This document shows positions 34,832 to 61,935 of a stretch of DNA of 64,000 bases, piece after piece. The stretch lies in NCBI GenBank assembly GCA_022225965.2, contig JAKJXP020000074.1:1-64000 (forward strand), written 5' to 3'. The notes below the pieces were generated by a model. That model did no database searches, was not told the DNA's origin, and saw nothing but the letters and a program-made list of their open reading frames with translations. The DNA comes from Diatrype stigma. Taxonomy: Eukaryota > Ascomycota > Sordariomycetes > Xylariales > Diatrypaceae. The position numbers and the translations under genes were made by a program. The number at the start of each line of letters is the position of its first letter. Positions within the stretch are counted from its first letter, which is position 1.

Positions 34832-35867
34832 GGGCTACAATAAGAGAGCTTAGATTACATAACCAGGTAAGTGATCTTCTAAGTGCGACATTATAGCTAT
34901 TACATAATGTGGGCGGCCGGATCTATCATACGGGGTGGCCGGTTATGGGGTGATTGGCCTTAGGGTCTGCCATAACCACCCATCCATTTATTTTTTTTAA
35001 ACCGTAGGTAATCATTATGGGTTAATAGGTAACCATTGAAACGCAATTTCCCATTACTAATTAATGCTATAAACTAATAATTATTTATTAATTTATAGCA
35101 TTAATTAATAAATATCCATTATTAATGGTTATTTATTAATTATTATTATAAACCAATAAATAATTATTTACGAATAATTAATTATTTATAAATAATTATT
35201 TATATATATCGCATAATTATAACATATACGAAATTAAATAAAATTAATTATAATAGCTTATATTATAATAATACGTATTAATTTACGTATTAATTACGAT
35301 ACATTTCGTTATATAACTGTTATAATTAATTAAACTTAATAATTAAATAATTAAAACCTTATAGCTATGTTTTTTTTCGTTTAAATTTATAAAAAACATA
35401 ATATTTTAATTAATATTATCGTCTTTTTCGATATTTTTAATTAAGTTTAATTTAAATAATAATATATCTAGTTATAAATCCGGATTTATATAAAAGCTAA
35501 GTATTACGATTAATTTTAATATTATAAATAATATAATAGCCATATTTATGCCTTTTTAATAAAAACGGCCCTTATTATCGATAATTCAATTAATTATAAT
35601 ATCCGATTAATTTTTAACATAATTATGAAATAGGATTTTGTTTTATTTATTAAATTTTTTATTCCGAATTATATAATTTTAATTAATTATTTCTTTAATT
35701 ATTTCGGTAATAATTAAAAAATAAATAACATTACGAATAAATAAATATAAATAACGAAATAAGCATCGATTTTAATACCGGCATTAATAATGCGTTAATT
35801 TATTACAAATATAAAGTTAAAAATTAATACGGGAATTAATACGACGATTAATACGGAAATTAATACT

Positions 35868-36002
35868 GATACGTAAAAAAGGTGGGGACCAACCAGTTAA
35901 GGTTAATCCAGGTTATCTAGCTATATATACCCTGTATGTATATATGTATATAGCGTACACCACTTGGTTGGACCATGCTAGGCCCCCCTAGGCACCCGTA
36001 TC
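35868..36002 (+). mobile_element. 135-bp inverted-repeat element (MITE-like), copy 1
   Basis: It begins GATACG and ends CGTATC. Inside the ends are longer imperfect inverted repeats (GGGGACCAACCAGT against the complement of ACTTGGTTGGACCAT) and a near-palindromic centre of TATATATACC/TATATATG words. It is nearly identical to copy 2, same length and orientation, and is less AT-rich than its surroundings. Confidence 0.75.
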
Positions 36003-36173
36003 AAAGTGCCGGGGACGAAATAACCTCTATCGACCTCGATAGTCTTATTGCCAGATTGGGCTTAGGGCCGGAGCGCGCATTCCCAGGTGTGGTATGATAG
36101 AATGGGCTCGACGGGCTTATCGCCAATTGGGCTTATCGCTAAAGTCAGCTCGCCTCTCCTAGAATTTTTGGTA

Positions 36174-36312
36174 TCTCGTGCGGGAATCGAACCCGCCACT
36201 TTGCTGTGACAAGCAGCACTTCTTTCCAATAAGAGAACGAGATGCGTGGATCCTAGTGGCTGGGGCCCTTCCTTTATAATGGCACTGTACCGCTGCGCTA
36301 CCAGACCGGAAA
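36174..36312 (-). other. tRNA-like (Pol III, SINE-like) sequence between the two 135-bp elements
   Basis: On the minus strand, 36300-36290 is a perfect A-box-like TAGCGCAGCGG. The segment 36242-36174 (69 nt) starts TCTCGT, ends ACGAGA, has a perfect T-arm (GCGGG/CCCGC) with the B-box GGTTCGATTCC, and a GTC triplet where an Asp anticodon would be. The anticodon and D arms do not pair properly, and A and B boxes are about 100 nt apart. I therefore read it as tRNA-derived, like the head of a SINE, and not as a working tRNA gene. Confidence 0.55.
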
Positions 36313-36323
36313 TGCTACCATTT

Positions 36324-36458
36324 GATACGTGAAAAAGGTGGGGACCAACCAGTTAAGGTTAATCCAGGTTATTTAGCTATATATACCCTGTATGTATATA
36401 TGTATATAGCGTATACCACTTGGTTGGACCATGCTAGGCCCTCCTAGGCACCCGTATT
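36324..36458 (+). mobile_element. 135-bp inverted-repeat element (MITE-like), copy 2
   Basis: Same length, ends and internal inverted repeats as copy 1, except that the last base is T (CGTATT). The few visible differences from copy 1 (A/G and C/T) are transitions. The two copies are direct repeats 321 bp apart around the tRNA-like sequence. Confidence 0.75.
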
Positions 36459-39400: not shown

Positions 39401-42400
39401 GTACTTTCGATTTTATCGCTAATATTTTCCGCGAATTAAATATTTCGAACGAAAAAAATGCATCTTATAACGCCAAAAAAAAAATGAATTTCGCATAGCT
39501 GTTATGGGTAATTTATTTTTATCGAATAATTCGAAACGAACCGGCTTTATATTAAACGTAATAAAAAATTTAATATATTATTAATATATTAAAATTATAA
39601 AGAATAAGTTTTAAAAATAATAAGTAACGATATTTAAATATAAAATAATAAAGGCAAAAAAAAACGAACGTATAAAAAAAATAAAGAAAATAGCTAAAAC
39701 TAATCGAAAAAAAGGCCGGATTAAAAATATCGAATAAATATATTCGATGGATTGCATTTTTAAAACTAAATAGCGAATTAATATATAAAAAGAATTTAAC
39801 GAAAAAGCAACAATTAAAAAAAAGCGGCTTATGGTTATATATAAACAATATCGTATTGCTTTAAACCATTTTAAAAATGTTGCGATAACTTTAAATAACG
39901 GCATATTTTTTTTACGAAATTACTAAGTATTAACGAAATATAAAAAAGCCGCAAAAGCCGCTAAACGAATAACGACAAACGGTATATTAATATATTTATC
40001 GTTAATAAATTCCGTATTAATCCGCATATTAATTATTATATATTAAAAATAAAATAATTTATGATTTAATAAAATATTATTAATCGAAAACCGTTTAATT
40101 TTAAATGTATGGATTTTTATATGTTTATTATTTAATCGCATTATCGATTTCCATTTTAAAGCCTTTATTAATTATTTGTATTTTGGTTTTTCGTTATTTT
40201 TATTACGTATATTGCAAAAGCGTTATAATAAATATGCCGAAGCGATCGTTAAAAAAAAACTTAAGGACATTATTAAAGATTTTTATATTAACGTAACGCA
40301 TAATATATAAACCAATTCCGGGCTTATATGGAGTTTTTAAGGTATATACGTATATTTCGTTAATAAAAAATGGAATTTTAAGTACGTTTTTATCGATATA
40401 TATCCATGCGATAATAAAAAAGCAAAACTAAATATTAAAAAGATTTATAAAATATTAAACAAATACGATTTTGCCATACGGTTTTAAATAATTACAATAA
40501 ACGGCGGGCCTAGCTTTTCGATGAAATATATACGAAAATTCTTAATTAAAAACCATAAGCGATTAGGTATAGATTTTAAATAAATCGAAAACGTAAGCCA
40601 TTTTTATTGCTTTTTTTATATATTATAAATAATTAATGAAAACATTTATAAAGAACTTAGCGTTAAATAAGTTAAAAGGTTCGCAAAAAATGCAGGGGAA
40701 AAAATGAAAAAGAACGAAAACGGCAAAGTTAAAGTATTTAAGATTATTTTTAATAGCGTAATTAATATTTTAAAAGGAATACGTATTTAATCCCATTTTG
40801 CGTATTAATTTACGTATTAATTTACGTATTAATCTAAATTCTAGGTACGATAAATAATGACGTATATTAACCTTAATACCAAACGTTAAAAAAATTACGG
40901 CCATCGAATAAAAGTTTATAAATAATAAGCTCTTATAATTAAATCGTTATTTAAAGCTTATTCGTAACGTTCGTATAAAATGGAATTTTATTATATTAAT
41001 GTTAATTCGAATATATGTTTTATGGATAATAATTAAAAAATATATATTGGAAAAATATTTAGAAAAAAAATTAAAATTACGGAAGCGACATTATAAATCC
41101 TAAGTTATATTATTAATATTATTAAAGTTTTTATTTATTTAATAAACCTATTCGGTTTTAGCAAAAAATGCAATATTAATTATATATTTAAAAGTTATAA
41201 ACTGGTAATTTATTATTTAATCGTTTATAAAAATTATGTTACGGAAAAACTTAAAACCGAAAGCTATTTAACGTAATTAGAAAAAATTAATTATGCTTTC
41301 GATTTTGCTTTTTTTAAGTTAAAGGATTATCGATAAAAAGTTTTTGTTAATAATAAGGAATATCTTGTTATTATTATGCTTTTATATCTATTTAGCCGCA
41401 AAATAAATCCCAAGCATTTTAATAAATAACAAAAATATTTCGGAAAAAAATCAAATAATGAATATATTAAAGCCGAAGTTATCCGTTATTTTAAGAAATA
41501 TTACGAACCGTATCATGTTAAATATAATAACGAATTGGTTATTTTTAATTATATCTAGCATATTCGGTAACGAAATTAATCGGACATAACGGAAATAATA
41601 ACCAATTATTAATCGATAAATCCTTAAAAGATATCTTCATAATTGCAATATTAATTTAAAGCTTATTAATATTATATAGCCATTTTTTTTTTGTTTTACG
41701 CATTAAACGAAATGCTATTTTTAAAGCTATCGGATTTTATTATTAATAAATATTTAAAAATGAATCAATTAATTTAAGGCCATTTTAAGATTAATACGTT
41801 AATTAATACGATTAAATCTAAAGCTTAATTAAATTGCTTTTTAATTTTGGGCAAAATTAAAACGTTTATTATTTGGTTTTGTTATATTTATCCGTAATAT
41901 TTTTAATATTTAATCCGTTGCTGTAATAATAAAACGAACATAAAATTAAACTCGATTAATATATTATTTTAATCGATTTTTAATTAATCCGGATGCATTT
42001 AAAACTTTTCTTTTAATTATTTCTTTTTTTCGTTACGAAATACTTACGTTTTTCGAAAATGTATTTTATAACGAAAGAAATAACGATAGCAACGAAATTA
42101 ATATATTTCGGAAAAAGCAAGAACTTAAAAACGCATTTAAATTTTCATTTTCCGATATAATAGCGTTTTTATTATTGGTTTAAAACGGATCTAGTCTTTA
42201 TATATCCGAATTTAGGCATAATTTTGGTTTTAAATAAGCCTTTTTTGGATTCGTTCTAGCTAAATAGGTTTATGATACAATCGAAGTACAAAAATCGAAA
42301 ACCGTTGTTATTAATAAAACTCGACTTGTTATATTTTTCGTTCGAAATGGAAATAAATAAAAAAAAAACAGCAACAATAATAACCCAAAATTAACCGAAG

Positions 42401-44660
42401 CCTAAAGAAAATGCTACAATAAGAGCTAAACGAACGGCAATCCAATTAATTCTTTAAAACTAATGTATTTCCTATAATAATAATAATATCTTTTACGTAT
42501 TTATTATTTTTTTTTATTATATTAATTAATTTAAATATAAAATAAGTATTATAAATTAAATATTTAATAAATATTTAAATTAAGTTTTAATAATAAAGAT
42601 TTTAAATAAAAAGTTTATTATATAATTAAAATATAAAAAATATAATATATATTATTTTAATTATATTTTAATTATATAAAAATTTATTTATTTCATTTAT
42701 TTATAAAATATAAAGAAATATAATATTAAAATTAAAATAAGTATTATAAAAAGTATTTATTATTATATAATTTAAAAGGTATTTTAAAATAAAAGTATTT
42801 TAAAATAATTTAAATATTAAAAAATATTATAAATTTTAAATTTTTATTATTTTTTAAAGTTAATATTATAAGTATAATATATATATATATATATATTTCG
42901 ATATAGGATTTTATAATTAATCCATTATAGTTACTGTTAGTCGCTAATAGCCGCGTTTTATATTTTATAACTAGCGGACCCATTAAAATGTACATTAACG
43001 TAATTTTGGCTATACGTATCGTAATTACTTCTTTTTTTAACCTTCAATTCCGCCAAGATTTTCCTTTCGTTGCGTTTTCGTAAAACCCCCGATTTAAGTT
43101 AAAATTAATTAATACTTTCCGTTTTGGTCGCTTATCTGGCCGATTTTCGGGTTTTGCGGCCATTATGGCGCATACGAAATAAACCGATATGTTATTGCTT
43201 TTTTTGCGTATTAATTAACGTATTAATCGACGTATTAATCGCTTAATAATCAAGCCAAACGCGGCTAAAGATAAAAGCAAAAGCAAAGGCATAAGTAAAG
43301 GCATAAATAAAAGCAAAAACAAAGGCAAAGCCAAAAATAAGGCAATACTTAAAAAACCAAATATAAAACGTCGCCGCTTTAAGCCTAGTAATAAGTATTA
43401 AATTATTTTCGTATTTTATTTATTAAAAAAACGTTAATTTAATATAGCCGTTGTATTTCGAAAGATTTGTTTTAAGCAAAAAAAAACTTATAAAAAGCCG
43501 GCGATTTTAAAAACGCTTTTTTAACGATTAATTTAAAAGATTGCCTAAAATTTGCATTTAAATATTCGAATGCAAATTATTGCCTTAAAAGCGTTATAAA
43601 AAGCTATAAAAAAATTATTATTATTTTTATAATTAATAAGTTACGTATTAATTCGCGTATTAATCCGTATATTAATCGTTTATAATTATTAATTTATGCG
43701 TTATTTACGGCAAGCGTATTACTATTTAAGCGAAAGATATATAATTAGCTTATTAAGTTCGCCGAATTATGGATTTTATTAATTTAAATTATTTCGGCCC
43801 TGCGATAAAACTTACGAATTTTTTCGTAATTATGAATAAACGAAATAAATAAAATGCTAAAACTAAAAATGCTATACGTATTCGGATAATTAAAAAGCTA
43901 TATAATAAGGAAAACCAATAGTTTTTCGAATATCGGACGAAAAAAATACCCGTAAGCCAAAACGTTAAGCCCAAAAAGCTTATGGTGGCTTTAAAAAATA
44001 AAAAGCTTAAAAAAATAAAAAACGTTATATTTAAAAGGAACTACGTACTTTCGGTAAAGCTTTCGATAAAGCTTAATACGTAAATTAATACGTAAATTAA
44101 TACGCGCATTAAATATTGCGTTTAAATTTTAGCTTAATTGTAATACTTTAATTTTATTTTATGAAACGTTTTATTATACGAATAAAATAAGTTCGTATAT
44201 ATAAATTATTTAAATAAATAACTACTAGTTATTCATTTATTAAATTGCTAATTAATAAATAACCAATGATTATTATTTTAATTAGTAAGTAATTAGTGAT
44301 TAATTATTTTAACCAATAAGTAATCGGCTAATAGTTTATATTATTAATGGTTATTTACCAATAGGGATAACCATAACGGTTTTTCAGTGGTTACCTATTG
44401 GTTACCCACGGCAAGGCGTAATTGGCCTTATAGAAAATAGTTTGAGCTACCTAAGTAAATTGGGGGAAAGCCAAGCCAGTCTATGTATTTCCATCCTCTG
44501 GTCAGTCTATTTCCATCTTCTAGTCTATTTCCCTCTTCCGAGCCATCTCTTTTCACCCGCTAGTTAGCTCGTTCAATGTTGTGGGAAAGTCAGCCCATCA
44601 CCGCGGCCCTGTGCTCCTGTGTCCACTGCTTATATACAAGGGGACAGACACGCCAACCGT

Positions 44661-45255
44661 TCAAGACGGGTACTCCTTGGTGGTCGTGTTGACAATCTTG
44701 CCGTCCTCAATGAAGGTTGTCTGGGTGCCAAGCTGAATGTCAACCTTGGTTTGGTCAATCCAGCCCTTCTCAAACGCAACGACCTTGGTCTCCCAGTCCG
44801 GGTCGTTCAACATATTGCGGACTTTCTGCGGGTCCGACACCCAGTAGATGACGGCTGCGTCGTACGGGGCCATGTTCCAACCCGCGGCGCACCCGCCCTT
44901 GAGGTTGTCGAGGTCGCTCTGAAACTGCTGCTTGAAGGTGGCAGGTGTCAGGTACTATTTTGGGAGAAACAGAAGTCAGCGGCTGTTTATTGAGGGTGAG
45001 CTTGGCCTGGATTGATGTTCTGCCCGGGCGCTCAGCTGTAATTGATGAGGGTTGTTTCCCAGGATGCACCGATGCAGAACGAGATGGACGGAGACCTACA
45101 AGCTCGCAGCGATCAATGCCGTGCTTGTGAGCGACGGGGATGAAGCGAGGGATCTGCTCCTCGATGTACCATTTGGTCCAGGTCTCCTCATCATGCGACT
45201 GGTCTCGGTAGTGGAGGACTGATACTTTGAGAAGGGGCATCTGCTGCTCAGCCAT
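44661..45255 (-). CDS. EthD-domain protein (dimeric alpha-beta barrel)
   Basis: Exon 1 is 45255-45100 (52 codons) and exon 2 is 44954-44661, joined by a 145-nt phase-0 intron (GTAGGT; AAAATAG), giving 149 residues. It reads PLLKVSVLHYRDQSHDEETW, IEEQIPRFIPVAHKHGIDRC, then YLTPATFKQQF and a C-terminal DAAVIYWVSDPQKVRNMLND block, the layout of fungal EthD (ethyl-tert-butyl-ether degradation) proteins. In fungal clusters these small proteins often act as dehydratases or cyclases on polyketides. The substrate here is unknown. It stands between two AT-rich blocks, about 240 bp after the end of the first, so it is an isolated intact gene in RIP-affected DNA. Confidence 0.85.
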
Positions 45256-45904
45256 GGTTTCAAGAGAGCAGAACAAGCTTCAAGCGAGTAAAGGGTTGTC
45301 AGTCAATTCGGTTTCAAGGGATTTCGTTTCAATGTGTTGGATCTGGGTTTGAAAACCACCATCGTGAGCTGCTGCCCTAAATATGTCAACTTGTGGTAGG
45401 CTGAGACGGTGAGGCCACGCGCCGCATCTAATGTAGGCGGAGGGCAAAGACCGGGAATAAACGGGATGAACGCAAGAAGGAGCTTAGTCCCTGCAGGTAG
45501 GTGTTTTTTGGAAGCTTGCCGACGTGGTGGTCCGTAGGTTATACCAAGTCGGCTCATTATATATCTAACAAACCCGACCTGTCACAGGTGAGGCCCCTCC
45601 GCACCGAAGCGCCGAAAGAGCACAATATCCGAAGTGTTAAATGCCAGGGGCCGCCAGAAACTTCCGGTGCAGCTGCTACTTCTTCAGGTTGGTCCCCCGG
45701 GCTGGAGCCCCTTAGCTGGAGCTGGCCCGAACCGGTCCGCCCAAGTGGCTGTACCGGCTAGGTGGCAGCAGCTAGGAGCAGCAGCCAGGCCTGAAAGCTA
45801 GCTGCTTTAGGCGGGCACGGGCCGTTACTTAGCAGCCTACCTAGGTAGGTATGTATATGCATATTTAGTTTACGAAGTAATTACTCTCCTATTCGGAAGA
45901 GCTG
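45256..45904. other. Promoter side of EthD gene and an AGCTGG/CAGCAGCT-rich patch
   Basis: No gene seen. At about 45,690-45,800 the DNA is GC-rich with repeated AGCT/CCGG words (AGCTGGAGCTGGCC, GGCAGCAGCTAGGAGCAGC), resembling the unit of the tandem repeat at 61.9 kb. Confidence 0.4.
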
Positions 45905-47880
45905 ACCCCACCTAACTCTCATAGAAAAAAAAAAGTAACATAATAATCCTTCGTTTTATTACGGTATTATGGGTTTATAAATCACTTTAAATTAATAGTA
46001 ATAAATGTTATTATAAAAAAACATAATATTAAATAAAGTATAAACCTTCGCTTAATTAAGTAATAATAACTTAATAATAATAAAGTTATTATTACTTATT
46101 TATAATAATATGCTTAAATATATTAAAAAGGTAATAATAAAGCTGCTATTACTAGGAAAAATAAAATGGCACCGATAAAGCTATTATTAATTTAATGCTT
46201 AAAAATAAAACGGCATTAATAACGTTATTATTAATAACTTATATATATATAACGAAAATTAATTACGAATAACTTACGTTATTATATATAAAGTAAAACT
46301 TATAAATAATTTAATTAATAATATTACGATTTTATATTTTTATTTTTTATTATTTATTTAAGATAATGTTACGTAGCAGCCCTATAGCTGGTAAACAGAC
46401 CTTACACTTACTCCAGCTATGGCTACGTCATCCAATTACCCCTCATATATGCCAATAGCTTGCAGAGTTAATACCTTCGCAGTTATAAATCTTTTAATAT
46501 ACCTTATTATGTATGTTATGAAATCAGTAGCTTAATTGCTTTGTAATAAATAATAAATTAATAAATAAAAGTAATTAACGAATCGAAATTATTATTATTA
46601 CGTTATTATTATAAAAGAAAAGATTTAAAAAAGATTTTTTTTAATTTATAAATTATTTATATTTATAAATTACTTTAAATTAATAAAAACGATATAATAT
46701 TAAAAAAACATAATATTAATTAAGATGTAAGCTTTTATTTAATTAAATAATAACGGCTTAATAATAACGGAATTATTATTATCCGTTTATAACGATATAT
46801 TCGAATATATTAAAAAAGTAATAATAAAGCTGCTATTACCGAATAAAATAAACCGATATTAATAGCATTATTATTAACTTAATGCCCGGAAACGAAATAA
46901 TATCGATAGCGTTATTATTAATAACTTACGTACGTATAACGAAAATTAATTAAGGGCAGCTTAATTTTCGCTTTAAACTTTATTTACTTTTTTAAATAAA
47001 TATATATATATATAATACATAAATAAATAATCGGGTCTTTAATTAAAGCTGTTATATTATAAGTAATTATTTTTTAAAATACGTATTTATTAATAAGCGC
47101 TCTTATTACGTATTAAAAAACCTTTTAATAAATAAAGAAATTAATGTAATAATTTTAAAAAACGTCGAATATATTATATAATTATTTTAACGATTCGAAT
47201 TCGAATAAATTAATTAAATAAATCGATTAAATAAAAAAGTTAAAAAGAAAACGATTTAACTTTCGTATTATTATTTAAGTTAAATAATAACAAAACCGCT
47301 TTAAAAACGCGTTAATAATTAATAACGACTAAGCTAAGCTAGTGCCATTATATTTTAAGGTCTCGTAATATAAAAGAATTCCGATAAAAAAGCATTAATA
47401 AAACGAATTAGCTTAACTAAGCTCGAATGCCATCGTCGCTTCGAATCTCGCAATGTAAGAAATTCCGAAAAAAAGAAATACGTTATTAAAACGTAACAGT
47501 TTAATTAAGCTTACGTATTATCGTAATTCGAAATTTCGTAATATAAAAAAACTTAAAAAAATACGTTAATAAAACGCGTTAATAAAACGCATTAACTTAG
47601 TTATATTAATGTTATCGTAATTTAAAACGAAATAAAATCGCGATAAAAACGCGTTAAAAATAAGTGATTATAAAAATAATAAAGATAAATAAATAAATAT
47701 TATAATTATTTTATATTATATAATAAATTTTATAAACATTTAATAAATAAACGAAAGTAATTAATGAATTTAAATTATTATTATTACGTTATTATTATAA
47801 AAAAGATTTTAAAAACTAAATTCTTTTAAACTTATAAACTATTTATATATAAGCAAGCTTATAAACCTACGTTAACACTT
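45905..47880. repeat. Second AT-rich RIP block with diverged duplicated segments
   Basis: No gene. A segment at about 45,950-46,290 is repeated in diverged form at about 46,650-46,955 (shared words: ACATAATATTAA, GTAATAATAAAGCTGCTATTAC, GTTATTATTAATAACTTA). A second pair is about 46,560-46,680 and 47,740-47,860 (shared TTATTATTACGTTATTATTATAAAA, in two overlapping words). A short normal-composition island lies at 46,370-46,520. Confidence 0.7.
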
Positions 47881-50046
47881 AGGCAAACCACGTAGCGATT
47901 CTCACCATATCCATCTATCCAATTAAGCAGGCGGCGACGGACGAGGAAAGCTTCGCTAATATAAGGGAAGAATAAGCTATCAGGAGTACTCTCAGTTACC
48001 CTTAAATGAGAGGAGGCGTTGCCGGGCCTTATCAAGGCCCAACTGCTCCTAAGACCTCTGAGTAAAATAACCACAGCATCTATCACACAAGAACCTCCAA
48101 CCAACAAAACCTGTAGTTATTACGAAATGCAGGAATCGCTGGAATATAGCCTCTTGCTTGTTGCACGAAGTATTGGAATGCACTCCTGCCTAATATAGCT
48201 ACTGAAGGTATCACAACGGAAGCCGCGAAAGCTAGAAAGCTCCGGTACAAGCACCTACGCTTCACTCGGGCAAAGTAATATCGTTTGTTCGTCTGATCGT
48301 CTGATTGAATTCCTGAATATTTGTAGATGGAGGGGTAATCGTAAATCTTTGGCCAGCGGCGTCAGAGCACCTCGGATTTTGGGTAGCTCATGACGTTCAT
48401 GTAACCCTAGATACACATGGACTTCTTGCTACTAGCTACAGCGTCGCAGTTCTCATCTCCCTGCTTCGATGCAAATGCATATAATCCTGATATTCAGAGC
48501 GCAACACCTCGGAACGAGGTTACATCTAGCCTGCTTTACCCAAGTAGGTAACGGATATGTCAGCTCGACTGGAATGTGTTGCATTCTAAGCAGTGCTCAT
48601 GTAGGGATGGGTAGCTTTCTATTCGCGCAGACGACGCGCACAACTTCGTATTTCGTGGTAAGTACATATACATACCCTCGTGGGTGGGTGAGCATCCGCC
48701 AAGTTGCTCGGTATGATATGCTTTTATGTGTCTTACACCAAGCATGCACCTTCCAATGACAATGAGCCGACCGCCAAAATTCAAGTAAAGCGACACATAT
48801 GTGACGTTTAGGCCACTAAGATCCGCACCCCCGCTGCCGCCCCCCCTTTTGCTTCCACGCTTTTTCCTCACGTCTTTTTTGTGCCAGCCAACAGTCGACT
48901 CGTGGAGTCATCATGTTAGCCCAATTAGTTCGTGTCTAACATTCGTTACCTGCTGTACTATACATATATTTGTTACACTACACGAAGCTGCAGATTAAAC
49001 TGAGCTGAAACGAGTGACTTGGCCGAGAACTCCGACCGAGGATCGTAACTAAACTAGTCTTTCATCCCCCAAAAGTAGCCATGATTCACTGAAGCAGTAA
49101 CATCTCGCGAACGTTGTGCTCTCTAGTTGCCTAAACTTAGAAGAGTGCATGCTGTCAGGGGAATGGGGTGTACCTCACTATCACCGGGTTTCACTTCCCA
49201 AGTTACCCCCCATTCTCCTTGTCAAGCCTTACGGGGCGATAAGCAACCCCAAGAGACAAGGCCTATTTTGAAGCAACATAAACGACTATGTACATCTATA
49301 TCCGTCGAGTAATGTAGACCACAAGCTGGTCTATGATCATGGGGTATTGACCCTATCGCATCTGATGTATTAAATCGTATGAATTTGACAGTTCTACTGG
49401 TTCGGAACCGATGAGAGTAAGGCTGTGCCCTTTCACTCCAGGAGTACATGCCGGATACTATCACATTGTAGCCAAGAGAGACGTTGTCGACGTGGGATTA
49501 AGGCTCAGCAACACCGCTGATAGATTATGGGATGGACTTGTGATACATGACATCCACTCTTACAAATAAGTCGTATTTCTATAAGAAAAAATACCGGTAA
49601 GTCTGGGTAGCACTTTCTTACTTGTACCTCAATACAAACTGATCAATGTTACCTTGAGCCTTGCTCGCCGATGGCCAGAACCTGTGGTCTGTTGAGCTAT
49701 TATAAGATGTATTAGATAGTTACTGTAGTTCCGACGCGTAGTAATCTCGCTTGGGTCCCATATGGTACAAGACGATAAAAAACCCTTGTGTTGTAACATC
49801 AACGAATACCACTCTGTATGCGCGCGTTCCTTCACGTATATTTTCCAATAAGCTATGACGAGGCGAGGCGATAAATCAGCCGCACCAACCATGGCCACGG
49901 GGACAGATTTCCAAGCTGAATAGGATTCCGACAAGACGTAATGTTGATGAGGTTGGGGTAGTCCCATAGCGTTACAATGCCCCCCCTCCCCCACCTTCTA
50001 TTTTGGAAGGAAAACGGTTAGGTCACCATTGTCCTACAAACATGGC
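47881..50046. other. Low-confidence region, no supportable gene
   Basis: Overlapping minus-strand frames at 47,859-48,265 have some hydrophobic character but no motif and touch the AT-rich block. Frames at 49,629-49,994 have no recognisable family. I see no intact gene. A run of C/T-rich DNA is at 48,840-48,880. Confidence 0.4.
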
Positions 50047-51083
50047 CTAAGGTCTCTCCAATAGGCCCTCCTGAGAAATATTCACCGCACGGTCTTCGGA
50101 CCAACGAAGTAGCCTTTCGGTGTTGACACACTGACGTGGAATCGGGTACTCTGTCTCTAAGGAGACCCCCTCTTTTCCCCCCCACTGAAAAGTTGTTAGA
50201 GTAGTATCACCTCGACAGAGCGCTGCGATACGGAGCCATTCAAGGCAATGCTCTAGATTTTGAAAGGTGTTGTTAGTTAGTTCACTCGACAAAGGGGACC
50301 TAGGTTGTTTGAAGCTCTTACCTACGTGAGCTTCCTCCTCTTCGGCGTCAATTGATGATAGAGTACCATTGTAGTATGAACGATAGATCCAGTGCTTCAA
50401 CTTTTTCTATTGAATTGCATACTGTAGTCAGCGCTTTACATCTGCGACAAGGTTGATATAGCCTTACAAGGCAGTGTAGTTCATGGTAAACTCCAAGCTG
50501 TACCAAAACCCCTGAGCCATCACTGAGATGAACAGAATGAGCACCGAAAGGGTCAAGCCAATCTTGGGACACTCGAATATTCATTCCTGGACAAAGATTC
50601 AGTCACCATGCCTTGGAATGTTTCCAAGGGCGGGGGATAACGGAAGAACTGAGGGCAGGCCAAACCAGATAATTGTTTGTGCCAAACGGCGTCGAGTTCC
50701 GGACCAGGCTTCCCAGCGAACGGGCTGCTTAAGAAACCGTGCTTCTTAAAATACGTTGTTTCGTAATGAACGGCTTCTCTTGCAGGCGCTAATAGTTGTT
50801 ATTCATTTAGAACCTGGATAGTGCCTATAAATTACGTACAATTGGCGTGAATTGAAACCTGATGATCTTGAAACATGATGCTTCTCATAAGTATGATAAA
50901 TAGACAAGCATTGAGCATGAGGAGTCCAACATGCAGGGCAGAAACACCTTGTCGCCTCCACCCCTTGGCCCTCTTTTGTGTATTATTGGAGGCATGCACT
51001 TCTAGTAAGGATTCTGAGGGACTGGCGAGATGGTCATCAAAATCCGAAGCATCTCCAGACTTGAAAAGTTCTCCCGGGGACAT
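50047..51083 (-). CDS. UstYa-family oxidase (DUF3328), gene A
   Basis: UstYa-like proteins are membrane-anchored metal oxidases or cyclases acting on RiPP precursor peptides (ustiloxin, phomopsin, victorin, asperipin) or on small-molecule pathways. Exons 51083-50840, 50788-50666, 50586-50468, 50406-50322 and 50252-50047 join in phases 1, 1, 0, 1 to give 258 residues. A membrane segment at about residues 65-80 (LHVGLLMLNACLFIILM) is followed by SPAREAVHYE, PFAGKPGPELDAVW, GSGVLVQLGVYHELHCLKK and EEEEAHVEHCLEWLR. The two HxxHC motifs, HELHC and HVEHC, are intact, followed by CRGDTTLTTFQW. The second HxxHC is created only by the splice between exons 4 and 5. Start: the ATG at 51083 is the only in-frame ATG before the membrane segment. 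Confidence 0.92.
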
Positions 51084-51501
51084 GGCGTCTCTGAGTTGTC
51101 TTGGAAGGCTGAATGATGTAGTTGAAAGCAAGATTCGGGAAATTTCGAAAGGAATAGGTGCGCGGAATTGGAATAAGTAAAGAGTAAGTTATTATAATCA
51201 GACCCCACTAGCTAAATATCGAACACCAGATTGGTACGGGGGTGCATCGCTTGTCCGGGATGCAGCGATACCACCCTATAAATTGCAGAGCGGTAGATCT
51301 ATAATGTATCACAATTGTGCATGATTACGGCCCTTGAAGAGTAATATTCAATCGTATTGGCCAAAGATCAACGAATATCTAACCGAGTGTCATGCGATCC
51401 TTGCAATTTATGATATGTTTGCTCAAAATCCAACTACGATACTTGTTGAAAGCCATACAATACCTGCTCACAACATCCACGACTTCATTCATTTCCACGA
51501 T
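51084..51501. other. Promoter of UstYa A
   Basis: 418 bp between the start of UstYa A and the end of the small-peptide gene. No gene seen. Confidence 0.5.
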
Positions 51502-51830
51502 CTACACATCCTCCTCGTCTTTGTCAGACTCATCAAGCCATAGGTTCCCAACATTTTCATCTGCATCGACGGGTGTTCCTGCTAAGTATTAGGCTCTTGC
51601 TATGGTAATATGGCCGATTAGACACAGTGGCAAACTTACTCTTTACACTGACTACCACATCGCTTCTCGTATCAAACGTATTCATGTCTCCTAAGGCAAG
51701 CACACCGTCTATGATCTTATGAGAAAGTTTCTAACCAGAAACAACCATAGGACTTACCTCTCTGTGCAACTGGAGAGCCCAGTGTGTAACCTGTGACGAG
51801 GAGGCTTAAGAGGCAGGAACCGGTCTTCAT
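51502..51830 (-). CDS. Small secreted peptide, candidate RiPP-like precursor
   Basis: Exons 51830-51758, 51708-51640 and 51578-51502 (introns 49 and 61 nt) join in frame to give 72 residues. The start is MKTGSCLLSLLVTGYTLGS, a good signal peptide. Glutamine-arginine (QR) at residues 23-24 precedes a middle segment, and Lys-Arg at 47-48 (Kex2-type site) precedes a 24-residue acidic tail with one tryptophan (W61). The tail has no tyrosine, and no repeated core is seen, so the classical ustiloxin layout is absent. The last intron has tandem acceptors (TAG at 51582-51584, CAG at 51579-51581); only the CAG choice makes the KR site, the TAG choice gives KTG. The gene lies between two UstYa genes on the same strand. 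I infer a precursor peptide; a plain small secreted protein is the alternative. Confidence 0.6.
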
Positions 51831-52881
51831 GTTGTGGGTCACGTGAGTATGATGCAAACTTGAAGAGATTGTAGTGGTGGGAACAAGAGCTTGAGAGTAA
51901 GAGCCTTCGAAACTTAGCTTGAGTTATTTTTCAAGAAGTTCCCTACTGGCCTTATATATTGTTGTTGACCAGCTTCGTAGCCTGCTTCGTGTGAGGCTAG
52001 ACGGTTACAAATGCAGACCCCACCCTAAAGGAGCAGGCTCTGATATCATACCTACAACTACTACATACAATAATGATCCTCAGTTCTATAGATATCACTC
52101 AGGGCATATGTTTCTACTACTACGTATGGATTTGTGTGTCTGGGAAGAATTCTAGGCATTGCATATCAAAACTCTACGATCAAAGGCAAAACAGGGCAGT
52201 AGGTAGGTATAACACATGATAGGGGAGAGGGTGGGGGGCGTAGATATCCACATAATTTAGGATCCCACCGGTACCTTTATTTGCGCTACAAGTTTCCAAC
52301 CGGAAAGGGATCAGCGAATCAGAGCACTTAGCCAAGACACAGTATAAGATCTAGGCAGTGGAAGGATTCTAGCTATATAGGGTAAGCAAAAGAGTATAAG
52401 GATTTCACTGGGACTACTGTATATGAATAAGTCTGTATGTACGATTTTCCGTAATTCTGTTCACTATATTACAGCTATTTGTAGGCGGCAGGCACCTGTA
52501 TTTATACTGGATAGGCCGCTGTAGGTATTAGGCTTATAGGGAGTTATAAAAGGCTATAAAAGATTATAGAATTTTTTATATAAGGGGACGGGCCCCCTTA
52601 TTTCCCAGCAGCTTTTCCGTTTTGGGCTTAGTGTGTTTTGCCCAGGGGCAAAACCCTTATAGCTACGTAAGCTCGTAATTATATAATTACGTTATTATAC
52701 GGTCTGGAAGGTGCTGGAATCTTCCGTAGCCAGTAAGAATTTGTCCCTTTTTCCAGCTAATCCTAGAGTTACATATGCTGTGTCGACCATACGACGTAAC
52801 AAAAGCTGCAGTGCAACTTATAAGAGTAAGCAAGACGGTGAGGCCAGGTAGTATTCGATTAAGTTACAGGTATATACATAA
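51831..52881. other. Intergenic with three consecutive inverted repeats
   Basis: No gene seen. At 52,581-52,600 is TAAGGGG/CCCCTTA, at 52,635-52,654 a perfect 9-bp hairpin (GTTTTGCCC/GGGCAAAAC, 2-nt loop), and at 52,674-52,691 a perfect 18-bp palindrome (CGTAATTATATAATTACG). The T/A-rich pieces around them (ATAAAAGGCTATAAAAGATT) differ from neighbouring promoter DNA and may be a transposon remnant. Confidence 0.45.
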
Positions 52882-53844
52882 TCAGCCGTCTAACGGAAGG
52901 ATGAACTGTGAGAATATACCGAGATCTGATGTATCGACCATCCGACTTTCCGCCCACTGACGCAACAGGTCCCAGTTCACGCACTCATGGACACTGTGAA
53001 CCTTGGAGAATGGTTTTCCCTCGTGCCATAGAAAAGTTGCGAGTGTCGGATCACCCCGGCACATTGCAGCCTCGCGCCAGTACTCGAGACAATGATCTAG
53101 TCGATGTTAACCTCATCTTGCGTGATTCTGGTCATCCACTTACTTATATGTTGTGCTTCTCGTTCTTCTTCCTCTTCTGTCATATTAGTATAATAATAGT
53201 CGATGTAAAGATGGCGGCGAATACGCTTCTTCTCGATTGTGAGATTTTGTTCTGATCTATAACGTAAAGGCCAAGGACTTACAATGCAATGAAGCTCGTG
53301 AAACACTGCCATTTCTGCTAGATAACCTGAACCATCCTTGAAAGCAATAGATGATTCTCCAAGCTGTGAAAGCTCTTCGGGAGAAATCTTAATGGTCATT
53401 GCTGCATAACTGAGCCATAAAACTTGATGAAATTCGATTGAAAATGGGATTCTTACGTTTGATAAGCTCTCTCCATGCTTCGTCCAGTTCTTCTCTCGGT
53501 TCTCCCGTGTAAACATTGCTAGGATCTATGGACCTCCATAACTTGATTCTCCTATAAGAGATAGAGCTCATCGCGGGTGCTGGTCAATTATTAGAGTTTC
53601 AGCGCCAACTATATCAGGTCAATACATCGCATAGCTTACAGTATATGAGTCGTGGACGAATGCATGCATTTCCAGTCGAAACTCCATAGTAGACTAGCCA
53701 TACTACGTTGGAGACTATGAGCATGAGACCAAGCGCCAACTTAGGAGGATCTAAATGGACGTGTCGTAACTTTCGTGATGGTGATTTGGGGCGTTCTTCA
53801 TCGTTCTTGAGAAACGGAACATCCTCGGATATTTCAGAATCCAT
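52882..53844 (-). CDS. UstYa-family oxidase (DUF3328), gene B
   Basis: Exons 53844-53640, 53579-53457, 53401-53283, 53231-53144 and 53096-52882 join in phases 1, 1, 0, 1, giving 249 residues; the phases and the 119-nt third exon are the same as in gene A. A membrane segment at about residues 40-57 (LGLMLIVSNVVWLVYYGVS) precedes YSPAMSSISYRRIKLWRSID, YTGEPREELDEAWRELI, GSGYLAEMAVFHELHCI, KKRIRRHLYIDYYYTNM and INHCLEYWREAAMCRGDPTL. Both HxxHC motifs (HELHC, HINHC) are present; the second is formed across the exon 4/5 junction. Gene B and gene A are paralogues about 2.8 kb apart between starts. In RiPP clusters paired UstYa proteins act together on one peptide (UstYa/UstYb); that role here is inference. 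Confidence 0.92.
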
Positions 53845-55024: not shown

Positions 55025-58000
55025 ATGTCTTCCCTGAATAGCGACAATAATGTCCCTACCCTTCTCTTGGTCTTTAGCATTGTGTTCAGCATTATGCCCA
55101 CCATCGCTGTAGTGCTTCGATTCCAAGCAAAGAAAAAGTCACAATCTAAGGTCTCCTGGGATGACTGGACCATACTCCTTTCTTTGGTACGTTCTGAGCT
55201 AGAGTGGGCTTGCTTTCCATTACTGATGCCGACGCAAGGCATCATGCGTCACCACTGCAATCTTGATCATCATTGGTGAGAAACATAATAGCCAATACGG
55301 GTTTACAAACACTCATTGTATCCAGGTGTCACAGCTGGTGGAATGGGTCGGCATCTAAAACGTGATGCTACTGGAAATCCCATCTACGACCATGAATATG
55401 TAATCTTTCAAAGGGTAAGTCCAAGATCTGATGTCAAGACTTTGCCAACGCTTATGGTTTGCAGATGAATTATGGGATTTGCCTTACCCAATTATTGGCA
55501 CTTGGTCCGACGAAAGTTTCGGTGCTACTTCTTTACCGTCGTATCTTCGGTGTTGAAGGGCGTCGCTTCACCATCATATCCATGACCCTCATTGTCCTCG
55601 CCACGACGTGGACAGTTGCTTTCTTCTTTACGAACGCCTTTCAATACACCCCCGTGAATTCAGGGTGGGCCCCAACTCCGGCAGGGTTACATCCAACCTT
55701 TATGCCCCCCACAAAAATGTTCTTAGCCCAATCTTATGCCGACGTAGCTCTAGATGTTGTCATCATCACGCTCCCAATTCCGCTTAGTATGTATTGTCAA
55801 CATATACGATAAGGTCTAAGAACTAATCATGGCAGTCTGGAAACTTCAGATAACCCTGCGAAGAAAAATACAGATTAGTGGCATATTTCTATTAGGCGCA
55901 ATGTTGGCTCGACCGACCAAATTCTTGATTGGGATCAAGCTAACGACTCGTTAAAACAACCGGTGCCAGTATTGCGAGAACTATTGTTCAATACGGTGTA
56001 GCTAAAGAATGTACGTATCGACCCTGCCTTTTTGTCGCGGTAAAATGGGTCTATTTGGAGCTGTTCTAATGCCATGGCAAGGGCCCCCCTGGGGGGCCCA
56101 TTGGGGCCTATATAAAGGTCCGATCTCCCCCCATACGTTCCGGACGTTCCCTTTTTTCCTTCCTTAAAGCTTTAGCAAAATGTAACAAAATACGTTAATA
56201 TAAGGGCTATTCAAAAACGCGACAGTTATAAGCCCGGATTCGCTACGGACTCGGTACTTTCTTTTTTTGAGCCAACTTCCGCTATGCGTTAGTCCTTTTT
56301 TTGCCCGTTCGTATCCTTTGCGCTTACGAAGCTTCTTTTCCCGTTTGCGCTTTCTGCCGCGTTTGCGAGGCTTTATGCTACGCTTTGTTTCTTTTTTAAA
56401 ACTGGCGGGCTTTAGTATTTTTAAGGATTACAAAAGGACGTATTCCCTTTTAACCCTATACGGAACAAGTTATTACAATCCTTTAAAAAATCGATTACCC
56501 TAAAAATATATAGCTGTTCGTTTTATAAATTCGTATGCCGCCTTCGTATAAACGACCTTTATTCGGTTATTAGAAATACGTAAATTAATCCCTTCATAAT
56601 TCCAATAAAAATAAGTCTAAACGAAAGAAGTTTATTTAAAAAAAAACGACTGGTTCCGAATAAAAAAGACGAACGCGGTATTCGTAAAAACCATTATTCC
56701 TAATTCAGCAATGCGTTATACCTTTCCGCCCTCGATTTCGGAAATAGGCGAGCTTCTTTTTGCCCCCCAGCCAGCTCGACGAGATCTCGCGCGGGCTTCG
56801 CAAACGTCGAATTGGGAGGTGGGCAAAACCCTAAGTCCTACGTTCGGCTCGGGTCGGTCATACGGGCTGGCTCGTTATGGGCCGGTTCAGCTTTCGCGCT
56901 GGCGTTTTTCCTTTTTCGGATAAAGGAAAGGCGATCCTTTCCGATAGGTCTTTATAAATCGCCGAAACCGATAAAAACGTTAAAGGAAAAATATTAGGGG
57001 TTTTTATTATACTTCCCTTTATATTATAAAACGGCAAAAGCTATATATAAACGATTCTTTTTTTAATTAAAGCGGCCTTTTTTATATAAGCCCTTAACGA
57101 TACCTAAATAAGAATTAGCCATAGCTATTTAAAAACTGGAATTATATGCCGCCTAAAATAATAAGTACTAAGCGTAATACTGCCGGTACCGAAAAGGAAC
57201 GCTCGATTCGGCCGTTTTAATTTTCCTTATATTAATAAGCCTATTTTAACCTTAAGGGATTTTTCGACCAAGGGCCTTTAAAATCGGGAATAAGTACGGT
57301 TAAGAGCTCGGCTAATACCTAAATGGGTGCCAATTCGGGCATTGCTTTAAAGCTCGGTTGGTATCCGCCCGCGTTCGGGGATACCAGCCCGGGCCGAAAT
57401 ATGGGCCGGCTTTTTCCCTTCTTTGCTTCTTCCCTTTTAAGGAAATAACGTTTAAGGCCGGTCCGAACCAGAAAAAGTTCGGCCGGTACCTTCGGAGGTA
57501 CCGGCTCGGTATAGCAAAGGAATTCGGCTGATATTCGCTTACGTTCGGGGGTACCAGTCCGGGCTTAAATACGACCGATACCTACCTTTATTCGGAAATG
57601 CCGGTTAGGTCCAATAAAGGAACCCGGCTAATATTACGGAATGCTCGGTCCGGTTCGCTTCGGTTTAGGTCTAATAAGTGCTTTTCCTTTAAAGAAATAC
57701 GTTATAAGCTGGTATTATATACGGGCCGGTATAAAACGCCGCATTACCGCTTTAAATACAGCACTAAAGAAATGCCAAAACCTTTTCCTTTTTTTTCGAT
57801 TAGGGTAGTTTTTTTTATAAAAGCTTAAAAATGAATGGTTATTACTTCGATTAATTAAAGCCGTTACGAATGCGCTGCATAGCATTACTTATAGGTTATT
57901 TGTCGTTTAATAAAGCATAAAAAAGTTCTTAGCTACGGAAAAGAAATACAACAACCACCGTTACGAAAGCGGTTCGGAATGCCACTTATCGATACGAAGA

Positions 58001-58908
58001 AATGCCGTTAATATAGCATCGTCGAAAGCCGCTCGTTATTCGTCGAACGCGCGGAAAAGGACCCATACGTAAATGCGTTTAAGCGCCCAAGGTAATTCCA
58101 AGGGGCTATTCGTCTTAACCATTTTAATCTTTCCATATAACGTATAATCATTCTTGCCGGTTACGATAAGTAATTCCTATATACCACTTTCGGAAATTAC
58201 GATATAATCTCCCTATATATATAGCCATGCTCGCTCTTTTTCTTCTTAAAAGGGACCTCCCAAGAAAAAGGGTATATCGCGGTAAAATGGATTTATTTGG
58301 AACTGCTCTAATGCTATGGCAAGGGCCCCCCTAAAAGGCCCATTGGGGCCTATATAAAGGTCCGATCTTCCCCCATACGTTCCGGACGCTCCCTTCTTTC
58401 CTTCCTTAAAGCTTTAGCAAAGTATAGCAAAATACGTTAATATAAGGGCTATTTAAAAACGCGACACTTTTGAAGTTTAAACGATCAATTTAATTTAACT
58501 ATTCCCTTATAACCGAATCACATAACTTAGACAAGACATGTAAGTTAAAGTTAAGGGCATTGCAAACAATCAGCTAAATTAAAACAAGACTTCCTTGCTC
58601 CTATCTCGTATTGGCCATTGATCGAATCAGCATTGGGTATTATTGCAGCATGCTTGCCCTTGCTACGCCCTATTGGTCAAATATACTCTATCAGGAGCTT
58701 AGTGCTTGTCTCCAGCAAGGCACTATCTGCTATATTCATACGATCAAGTCGAATTAGCCATGAATCGACACGTGGATATGAAAGTGATAAACGCTTACAA
58801 AGCTGTCCTCCTACTGGTCACGGTGGTCCTGCAAACAACGACCAGTGGCTCAAGCCATATAATCTATCGTACGGTAACTGTATACAACTCCCAACATGTG
58901 CCGACTAA
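55025..58908 (+). CDS. Fungal rhodopsin-domain seven-TM protein, last intron carrying an LTR element
   Basis: Exons 55025-55186, 55239-55275, 55326-55414, 55465-55786, 55836-55902, 55970-56010 and 58589-58908 join in frame to give 345 residues. This is the fungal integral-membrane family common beside secondary-metabolism genes: PTLLLVFSIVFSIMPTIAVV, SWDDWTILLSL, VTAGGMGRHLKRD, LGPTKVSVLLLYRRIF, DVALDVVIITLPIPL and WPLIESALGIIAACLPLLRP. The role is unknown (a receptor is suspected). The exon 5 donor is a weak GTTGGC but the phase and a CTAAC branch point fit. Intron 6 (56,011-58,588) contains a complete LTR element; without it the intron would be 139 nt. If the big intron is spliced the protein is intact. 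Confidence 0.75.
56033..56224 (+). repeat. 5' LTR
   Basis: Starts TGTCGCGG and ends CGCGACA, a terminal inverted repeat of TGTCGCG/CGCGACA. It includes an internal GGGCCCCCCTGGGGGGCCC palindrome, which is broken in the 3' copy by four G-to-A changes. Confidence 0.9.
58275..58466 (+). repeat. 3' LTR
   Basis: The same length as the 5' LTR. The visible differences (e.g. TGTC/TATC, CTGGGG/CTAAAA, GTCTA/ATTTA, ATGTAAC/GTATAGC) are all transitions, as expected from RIP. Confidence 0.9.
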
Positions 58909-59732
58909 CAAGTCACAGAGTGCTTGAGCAAACTATCGATCATGAAAGACAGGATGAGTCCCGTCCAATACTCACGCCTTCTGATGGTTGTACAGCAAAT
59001 GATGGGATTTTGAGTAAGGGGCTGTACGGAGTTGATCACGTAAATGAAAAAGGAGGTCATCTTAAGTAGTTGGAATTGGGGCGCTCAGTGGTTAATGGTG
59101 ATGCCTACAAGTTGCTATCATAGGAGAAATATTCGTATTGTCTCAACACTTTTGACTATTCTTAACGGCAGGGGGGCTCCTTCGGTGTTGGACAAGGTAT
59201 ATCTTCTTATTTGAGTTTATCCCTACCTTTTGACCATAAGATGTAGTAAGTTTAACACACAGTCTAACAAGGCATTCACAATGTCACAGTAGTGGAACTA
59301 GGAAGCAAGACCTGGGCGGGTGGTCACCTAGAATGTACAGATCCATCAATAAACCTCTTCAACAAGCCTTATTCAAGTTAAAGATACTTTTATGTATATA
59401 CAGAAGCCTGCTACACCCCCATTCCAAGTAAATATCGTTAAAATCCCAGGTACCCGATATGACGGAGCCTTGTGCGATTTTATGCATAAATACCTAAATG
59501 GCATATGCGGGGGTGATTAACCCCTTACCTAACTGGAGTAATTACCTAAGCGATATGTCGCTTATCTAAGGCAAACACCTACTTATCGTAGTGCAGGCTG
59601 CTGTTGCTACTTCTTACTTCTTACTTTACACCACCCCGATTTCCAAAGGGATATTTGCAGCCAGGCGACGGATATTCAGAGCAGGTATTATCCTTCCAAA
59701 AAGTATATCATTTGGCAACAATCATCGATAAG
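58909..59732. other. Intergenic
   Basis: No gene seen between the tandem rhodopsin-like and O-methyltransferase genes. Confidence 0.5.
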
Positions 59733-61307
59733 ATGGCTTCTGTGAACAGGATAATTGAGCTATCCTCAATCATTTCTAAGGAAACGGCGGCCATCAATAG
59801 CTTTCTCGTCAGCAACGGATTACGGACCCCATCTCTAGATGCAGATGCCCTCCAGTCCCTACCTATACCCGATGAGGCCAAGGATATCAAGGCAGCAAGG
59901 CTTGCAGTCATCGAGGCATGCTCGGAGTTAGAGGCGCTAATGACTGGACCGAGGGAACTGTTGAGATTCAAGGTCTGTTCATCTGTCTCCATTCACAGTT
60001 CGTTCTAGCTAATGAACAATGAGTAATAATAGTGGACTGCTTATTCCAGCGTGAAGGCGATCCTACGCTTCAAGCTTGACAGGGCTTTCCCTGTTGGAGA
60101 AGCTACGTCGTTTGAGGCTTTGTCCAATTTCTCGGGTCTCAATGTGATGAATGTTCGACGTATCGTTCGGCATGCCATTCTCAACCACCACTTTTTCCAA
60201 GAGAAAACACCTGGGGTTATCACGCATTCTGCTTTGACAGCCGTTCTGGCCCGCGACGACTTGATGCGGAACTCACTGATTGTCGAGCTGGACGAATTTT
60301 GGCCAGCAGGACTCAAGGTATTGACATCAGTTTAAAGAATCAAAGTTCGGACTGCTAATGCAAGTCACCAGATGGCCGACGCTATGGAAAGGTGGCCTAA
60401 CTCAGAAGAGAATAATGAGACAGTATGTCTGGTCCTTTGGTCCCTGGGAATATTATGCCGAATCCTTCGGTACTCGTACATATAAAGCTAACTGATGTCT
60501 TAGGGATTCACCCTTGCCAACAACAGCAACAAGGGCATGTTTGACATCTTTGCTGATGAACCTAATCGTGGAGACAGATTCGGCCTTTTCTTCTCAAAAC
60601 CTGATCCAACAGCTGATGGGCTTTTGAACGATTACCCCTGGGAAGATAAGAAGACCATGGTAGATGTTGGGGGCTCATATGGAAGTGTTGCCATCAGCAT
60701 CGCTGAACGATACCCTGATATAAAATGCATCGTACAAGACCTTCCGGATACGGTTGCAGAAGGAGCTTTGCGCCTGCCTGTTGAACTTCGAAACAGGGTT
60801 ACATTCATGGCACAGTAAGTTACCCTCAGTCCGTTGAAGTCGTTGGTGTTTTAATCTTTCTGGCTGCTCCAGTGATTTCTTTACCGAACAACCGGTCAGC
60901 GCCGATATATACTATTTCAGGTCCATCTTTCACAACTGGGCCGACAAGTATTGTATCAAGATTCTCCAGAACCTTATACCTGCCTTACAACCGGGTGCGA
61001 AAATTTTGATCCATGAACGTGTTCTGCCAGGACTTGAGAAACTGGACACGGTAGACGCCCAAAAAGCTATGTAAGCCTTTCACTGTATCCATTAACTACT
61101 TGAAGGTGACTCTGGGATAATATTGGTTGACTGATGATCCACAGCAATCTGGACGTAGGAATGCTACAGCTCTTGAATGCACAAGAACGCGAAATGCATG
61201 AATGGGTTGAGCTGTTCCGTCGGGCGGATTCTCGCTTTCGGTATCTGGGCGCCCGCCAGCCTACCGGCGATACTCGTTGGATCATGGAAGCTGAATGGAT
61301 AGGATGA
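59733..61307 (+). CDS. SAM-dependent O-methyltransferase (COMT-like)
   Basis: Exons 59733-59972, 60057-60317, 60372-60422, 60504-60814, 60873-61070 and 61145-61307 give about 407 residues. The N-terminal dimerisation/winged-helix part has FSGLNVMNVRRIVRHAILNH; a middle helix leads to MFDIFADEPNRGDRFGLFF, then the SAM loop VDVGGSYGSVAISIAERYP, CIVQDLPD, DIYYFRSIFHNWADKYCIKI (catalytic-His region HNW), and LDVGMLQLLNA. This is the fungal small-molecule O-methyltransferase family of secondary metabolism. The exon 1/2 junction is unusual: the obvious acceptor at 60049 is out of phase, and only a GAAG acceptor at 60056 keeps frame, at the cost of the usual segment before AILRFKLD. The gene may therefore have a small lesion or an extra short exon there. 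Confidence 0.85.
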
Positions 61308-61935
61308 TGCTCTTCGACTCCGCCCAAGGGGGTATATCGATCATTATGTCGAAGTGTCACCCAACATCTTAAGATGTCTACTAATGTCTACGCAAAATCT
61401 CGCACTTCTAGTCAAAGTTGTAGCTGGTATCTTGTTTCTTCGCTCCAAGCTCTTTTTGTTTATAACGAAATGTCTCACAATTATCCATACAGAGTGATAC
61501 AGCAGAATGAGCCCATTGAAGCGAGCACCCTGGGTGCTACGATTGCGGTACCCGATGGGAAACATCATTCGTGTGTGATTAAAAGTTCACTTCGCACATT
61601 TTGGGCACCTTGTCTCATCGGTTGCTCTCTATAAATCCTATCATTCATATCTGGGTCTTTCCTACAGCCTCTATCTTTATCCAAACCCAATCCAAGCAGT
61701 GCTGTCCCTATGCAAGGGCAAGCTGATACCAGCGTACTTGTGCCATATTGTGAGTAAAGTCACATTATGGGGAGCCGATATCGAAGACGCGGGCATGAGA
61801 AATTAATCATTCTGCCTTTGACCATAATTAGTCTCCACAGAAATTAAGGCGTTTGTATATAACCGGACTTTTGCGGACGACCCGAGCCCAAACGTAACAG
61901 CAGCATGCCCTCCTTATCCCCCCCCTGAGATACGA
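61308..61935. other. Intergenic
   Basis: The 3' flank of the methyltransferase. No gene seen. Confidence 0.5.

Follow-up and report, generated by a model that had tools for sequence, protein, structure and literature searches.

A compact UstYa-type locus with a candidate non-repeat precursor peptide in Diatrype stigma

In the fungus Diatrype stigma, two UstYa-family enzymes, UstYa_A and UstYa_B, whose linkage is conserved in other fungi, enclose a spliced reading for a small secreted peptide. We favour, with rather more confidence than doubt, a model in which this is a compact RiPP-like locus of the UstYa type with a non-repeat precursor and the peptide is the candidate substrate. The window, that is the whole stretch of DNA analysed here, is the leading 64 kb of the 244-kb contig C74 in a 49-Mb genome. 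The enzyme and peptide genes all have GT-AG introns and splice in frame, and they follow one another on the minus strand in the order UstYa_A, peptide gene, UstYa_B. The features of the locus and its surroundings are as follows.

52882 to 53844, minus strand: UstYa_A, five exons (53844-53640, 53579-53457, 53401-53283, 53228-53144, 53096-52882), 248 aa with one acceptor corrected
51502 to 51830, minus strand: putative precursor-peptide gene, three exons, 66-73 aa, from splice models and chance controls
51579 to 51639, minus strand: intron 2 of the peptide gene, with a TAG/CAG tandem acceptor deciding the presence of Lys-Arg
50047 to 51083, minus strand: UstYa_B, five exons (51083-50840, 50788-50666, 50586-50468, 50406-50322, 50252-50047), 258 aa
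55028 to 58908 (ends approximate), plus strand: Fung_rhodopsin (PF20684) gene, from profile matches and enrichment at UstYa loci, possible member of the locus
59730 to 61310 (ends approximate), plus strand: O-methyltransferase gene (PF00891), 97.7 bits on exon pieces, possible member of the locus

This layout agrees with the original prediction of two UstYa genes flanking a secreted-peptide gene on the minus strand, except that 72 residues is not the sole length of the peptide, which has several readings, and that the coding-exon joins number ten (4 + 2 + 4) rather than the eleven claimed.

Both flanking genes proved to be complete UstYa-family genes, as had been proposed: the proteins passed the curated Pfam cut-off of 25 bits for PF11807 with 174 bits (UstYa_A, in its uncorrected 249-aa reading) and 133.2 bits (UstYa_B), and neither spliced frame contains an in-frame stop. 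The membrane anchor and paired HxxHC motifs ascribed to each protein were likewise recovered, in that both carry a hydrophobic N-terminal stretch and two motifs (HELHC and HINHC in UstYa_A; HELHC and HVEHC in UstYa_B), of which the H, H and C are invariant across 23 aligned A rows and 18 aligned B rows, chosen from the 79 and 23 homologues, respectively, found in the protein search. The nearest relatives of both enzymes belong to the Xylariales, such as Biscogniauxia, Daldinia and Hypoxylon. Because the orthologue alignment reads HCI-KRIRRH, the acceptor of UstYa_A exon 4 was shifted by 3 nt, so that this exon starts later than in the simplest reading and the protein has 248 aa. The dicopper site of UstYs has been described as forming oxygen-dependent cross-links between side chains (PMC12186524).

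Orthologues of the two enzymes lie on one contig in 13 other fungi of the Xylariomycetidae and Pleosporales, a call based on the identical size of the contigs on which the A and B proteins are listed and thus denoting the same contig rather than adjacency. The linked genomes are Biscogniauxia FL1348, Daldinia loculata, Hypoxylon CO27-5, Hypoxylon FL1150, Hypoxylon trugodes, two Apiospora, Neopestalotiopsis clavispora, Xylariaceae FL1019, AK1471 and FL0255, Lentithecium fluviatile and Plenodomus tracheiphilus; Apiospora and Neopestalotiopsis are Amphisphaeriales, and Lentithecium and Plenodomus are Pleosporales. In a tree of 95 rows, a 17-row clade (support 89/75) contained the A partners, and an 18-row clade (96/95) the B proteins; proteins under 180 aa were left out, so Plenodomus P0059 and Apiospora P0098 are absent from it. 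Of the 16 named genomes on each side, 13 have the partner on the same contig; the 16 comprise, for A, the 15 of the tree clade and Plenodomus P0059 and, for B, the 15 of its clade together with Apiospora P0098. The metagenome rows P0076, P0095 and P0100 are excluded from these counts, and no such partner was found for the proteins P0008, P0011 and P0015 on the A side or P0084, P0089 and P0090 on the B side. Within the two homologue lists, no A-like UstYa outside the A clade shares a contig with a B protein except P0057, a single protein that occurs in both lists. Locus tags leave one gene between A and B in Apiospora rasikravindrae (PG993_000291/000293) and Apiospora sp. TS-2023a (PG984_001369/001371), and consecutive identifiers suggest that no annotated gene lies between them in Neopestalotiopsis and Hypoxylon sp. 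CO27-5. According to the A and B alignments, the linked enzymes are approximately 50-73% identical between species. These sequence comparisons firmly establish UstYa_A and UstYa_B as enzymes and as a conserved, linked pair, and since both oxidases are again found together on one contig in other fungi, the pair probably serves a small peptide-product pathway.

The peptide gene consists of a first exon at 51830-51758, a second at 51690-51640 or 51708-51640 and a third at 51578-51502 or 51581-51502. Two usable intron-1 acceptors give a peptide of 66 or 72 aa, so that the predicted 72 residues survive as one of several splice readings and not as the only length; together with the acceptor choice in intron 2, the main forms have 66, 67, 72 or 73 aa among 12 models in all. 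All of the main forms keep a signal peptide, predicted by a home-made heuristic, and a tail ending NVGNLWLDESDKDEEDV, and the peptide is composed of the signal peptide, a mid segment and an acidic tail with one Trp; the main reading has no Tyr after the signal peptide. The predicted Lys-Arg site depends on intron 2: its CAG acceptor yields VKR followed by TPV, whereas the TAG acceptor yields VKTGTPV without the site, and in the 66- and 72-aa readings Lys-Arg arises only through CAG. Retention of intron 2 would replace this ending with another, basic one that contains YY and RR. Neither the Lys-Arg site nor the choice of core can be called secure. The peptide contains no repeats and thus nothing resembling a tandem array of three or more units of 8 aa or longer bounded by dibasic sites, and its mid fragment does not match its tail as a diverged copy would, 4915 of 5000 shuffles giving an equally high score.

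Could the peptide gene be no gene at all, but a spliced reading that arose by chance in 1.8 kb of intergenic DNA? Its variable splice choices and the failure to find a homologue would fit this explanation, as would the first version of our home-made finder, which builds spliced, signal-bearing small genes of up to three exons and under stricter settings gave no model for it. The settings for branch site, acceptor and length were changed after that miss, and the finder test is therefore supportive rather than independent. With these settings, the start of the peptide gene was the sole start returned over 48-56 kb, and a three-exon model with KR appeared in 0 of 200 and 0 of 1000 first-order Markov shuffles of that interval, while spliced models carrying KR or RR appeared in 31 of 1000. 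Over the window and 16 other loci (218,258 bases), the finder returned 15 spliced starts, seven of them with KR or RR (the peptide gene, three Kex2-type precursors next to other UstYa genes on contigs C42, C85 and C34, one UstYa gene on C19 and two others), and only the peptide gene gave a three-exon model with KR. In addition, the gene has perfect GTAAGT donors, TATATAAG and a CT-rich leader lie upstream, and its GC content by codon position (0.57/0.39/0.51) is like that of UstYa_A (0.54/0.39/0.44) and UstYa_B (0.58/0.41/0.45), which speaks against chance; no promoter word is shared among the three genes beyond what shuffles give. On balance the peptide is probably a real gene, judging from these sequence features, and a chance origin seems improbable.

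The search for homologues of the peptide that the original prediction had proposed as a check, run here at the protein level, returned no relative among 5.8 billion proteins (one candidate, none scored), and the search of its own genome matched only itself. For the 13 linked genomes, that collection contains the A and B proteins at a minimum, and since the protein search requires exact 5-residue words, a diverged relative could be missed.

Within the same genome, 14 other UstYa loci were scanned as stretches of 10 kb (one of 9 kb, and one cut to 5.3 kb by the end of its contig), and five of them, on C19 (DSEAIPFYPKR), C85, C119 (DYAIR), C34 and C154, contain precursor-type repeat ORFs. At a sixth, on C42 (L014), a 66-aa Kex2-type secreted precursor lies between two UstYa genes, so that a small Tyr-free precursor enclosed by a UstYa pair has a parallel in this genome. 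The C42 precursor has a 73-nt phase-1 signal exon exactly as in the peptide gene, and a Fung_rhodopsin match lies beside C42 as it does beside UstYa_A; unlike the non-repeat peptide, it carries three imperfect copies ending AFKR/GFKN, its UstYa proteins are distant from A and B (at most 36% in short tblastn stretches), and its similarity to the peptide is not significant (126 of 2000 shuffles). The remaining eight loci yielded no convincing precursor in the repeat scan or the finder scan. Given that repeat number in this genome varies from three imperfect copies (C42) up to 16 (C119), the locus might be a dikaritin locus of the ordinary kind, with a precursor that has decayed until one core, no longer functional, was left; the fragments show no decayed repeats between them and both enzymes have kept intact frames, and we regard such decay as very improbable.

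The Fung_rhodopsin gene adjoins UstYa_A in divergent orientation and is split by an LTR-like element at about 56033-58471; its upstream pieces score 87.5 bits, and the downstream piece, which matches the end of the profile, scores 21.2 bits, under the cut-off of 27. The genome search with PF20684 gave at least 155 matches, with 150 of 207 candidates scored. Among the matches listed, PF20684 lies within 4 kb of 5 of 15 UstYa loci, compared with 6 of 91 P450, 3 of 31 ketosynthase, 0 of 13 tyrosinase and 3 of 30 O-methyltransferase loci (Fisher p = 0.008 for UstYa versus P450 and 0.06 versus ketosynthase). In the same set of listed matches, the counts are 4 of 15 UstYa, 3 of 91 P450 and 0 of 31 ketosynthase loci at 3 kb, and 6 of 15, 10 of 91 and 8 of 31 at 8 kb, where the contrast with ketosynthase fades. 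As the idea came from the positions themselves, in one genome and among the matches listed, this enrichment is a lead, and the Fung_rhodopsin gene is a possible member of the locus. So is the O-methyltransferase gene, whose matches in the genome search fall within C74:60615-61032. FAD-binding and alcohol-dehydrogenase-like genes are present at 30-34 kb, and one P450 match lies at 236 kb of C74, among the 92 of 316 P450 candidates scored.

From this setting it could be argued that the A/B pair is real but acts on a precursor elsewhere or on a small molecule, the peptide being an unrelated, lineage-specific secreted peptide. The lack of detectable relatives of the peptide next to enzymes with some 50-73% identity between species would fit this reading, as would the genes at 30-34 kb and the O-methyltransferase at 60 kb, and DUF3328/UstYa enzymes are reported to act in nonribosomal peptide and polyketide pathways as well (PMC12048977). 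Nevertheless, neither an NRPS condensation-domain nor a ketosynthase match is found on the 244-kb C74 among the matches listed, a scan for repeated 4-letter words in open frames, covering the window plus a further 20 kb, picked up nothing but simple-repeat or low-complexity frames, as judged by eye, and the pair encloses the peptide in the way seen at C42. We consider a substrate elsewhere unlikely, though less so than a chance reading or decay, and the peptide the likely substrate of UstYa_A and UstYa_B.

For the peptide as substrate, we infer the following course, including the Kex2 cut, the core fragment and the chemistry. The peptide gene would encode a secreted precursor that enters the ER via its signal peptide; given the CAG acceptor, Kex2 would cut it in the Golgi, releasing GDMNTFDTRSDVVVSV as the mid fragment and TPVDADENVGNLWLDESDKDEEDV as the tail, and the membrane-anchored UstYa_A and UstYa_B, dicopper oxidases in characterised cases, would oxidise or cross-link one of these fragments. 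Most likely the core would be a short island of hydrophobic residues around GNLWL, and the acidic residues that come next would act as a follower; the mid fragment, which contains Phe, could alternatively be the core. The predicted RiPP-like pathway with an atypical single-core precursor is thus upheld in part, by the linkage of the pair in 13 genomes and the same layout at C42, and weakened where it depends on the core and the Lys-Arg site. Here we speculate further, as a doubtful though not far-fetched extension, that the A/B pair may define an unrecognised pathway in Xylariomycetidae and Pleosporales with single-core, non-repeat, Tyr-free precursors that repeat-based mining would not see, the core being oxidised at a Trp, Phe, aliphatic or acidic side chain and not at Tyr. 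If the model favoured here is right, UstYa chemistry would not be tied to repeated precursors, and surveys demanding at least three repeats would have missed a part of fungal RiPP diversity; the A-B interval would then be the place to look for such precursors.

Among known systems, the dikaritins (ustiloxin, phomopsin, asperipin-2a) likewise have UstYa (DUF3328) oxidases beside a secreted-precursor gene, if the peptide is taken as the putative precursor, and Kex2-type processing is plausible here as well; unlike them, the peptide locus has no repeated core, as judged by the sequence, the repeat scan and the shuffles, and no Tyr after the signal peptide. A tyrosinase belongs to the ustiloxin and phomopsin clusters, whereas none is found on C74 among the 22 PF00264 matches listed genome-wide (an exon-wise search and a lower bound); the asperipin-2a cluster is not known to contain one. 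In the lichen clan R1, compared here by description only, two UstY-type genes and an O-methyltransferase are typical, but, unlike the peptide locus, R1 has a tyrosinase and an FGE-sulfatase and its O-methyltransferase lies between the two UstY genes, and clans R1 and R2 are described as restricted to Parmeliaceae (PMC12048977). A survey of Hypoxylaceae reported ustiloxin-like RiPP clusters through precursor similarity, by which, its authors state, the true diversity cannot be shown (PMC8403587), and in Trichoderma a 109-aa putative precursor has one core started by KK, with no UstYa named among the cluster genes listed (PMC7099791). In the literature at title and abstract level, most subscription papers being outside reach, no description of the A/B pair or of a proven single-core UstYa precursor was found. 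The peptide shares with the KEPs of Umemura (2020; PMC7329392) a signal peptide (by our heuristic), a possible dibasic site and a DUF3328 neighbour, and it would escape that survey because it has no repeats, where at least 3 of at least 8 aa were required. That survey gives Tyr in 65.6% of the repeated sequences in DUF3328-linked precursors versus 38.2% in unlinked ones, and Trp in 20.5% versus 24.5%, so that Trp is no mark of UstYa pathways and a Tyr-free repeat, found in about 34% of repeats in linked precursors, is common rather than atypical as had been supposed (PMC7329392). Some lichen UstY-type clusters contain secreted genes with Kex2 sites and without repeats, for which a single core was raised as possible in 2025 (PMC12048977), and the claim of a new class, faced with this and with the third or so of repeats that lack Tyr, is not supported. 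The putative pathway is best read as a variant of the known UstYa RiPP type, and what is unusual at the peptide locus is the absence of repeats, not that of Tyr.

Fung_rhodopsin (PF20684) matches lie no more than 4 kb from 5 of the 15 UstYa loci in the organism's own genome, among the matches listed, and are rarer at P450 loci taken for comparison, with a match at this distance at 6 of 91 (again among the matches listed). Besides the match in the window, such matches near UstYa loci are found on contigs C42, C31, C82 and C57, and on C57 about 2 kb separate a UstYa match from an O-methyltransferase match, in addition to the PF20684 match.

Window 55028-58908, + strand: Fung_rhodopsin (PF20684) match near the UstYa locus
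Window about 56033-58471: LTR-like element, interrupting the rhodopsin-like gene
Window about 34000-48000: AT-rich tract, GC minimum 0.21

The LTR-like element carries direct repeats of 193 nt that are 91% identical, and among the matches listed this repeat has 40 in the genome, many of them paired at a spacing of about 2.0-2.4 kb. A 5-bp target duplication, judged by eye, is present at the insertion. Dinucleotide ratios are altered across the AT-rich tract, a RIP-like signature, and an island of normal GC at 44-46 kb contains a short ORF, which we take to resemble an EthD-type protein; a Pfam search with this ORF returned no match.

L014:4516-4772, - strand: 66-aa precursor on C42, flanked by two UstYa genes

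The C42 precursor contains internal copies (IDVADAFKRE..), and its locus constitutes a second UstYa/peptide/UstYa arrangement within the genome. UstYa genes are also adjoined by repeat ORFs of precursor type at loci L016 (contig C19), L017 (C85), L020 (C119), L025 (C34) and L026 (C154), the repeat being DSEAIPFYPKR on C19, DYAIR, without KR, on C119, and a Cys-containing unit (RGDLDVGQC...) on C154.
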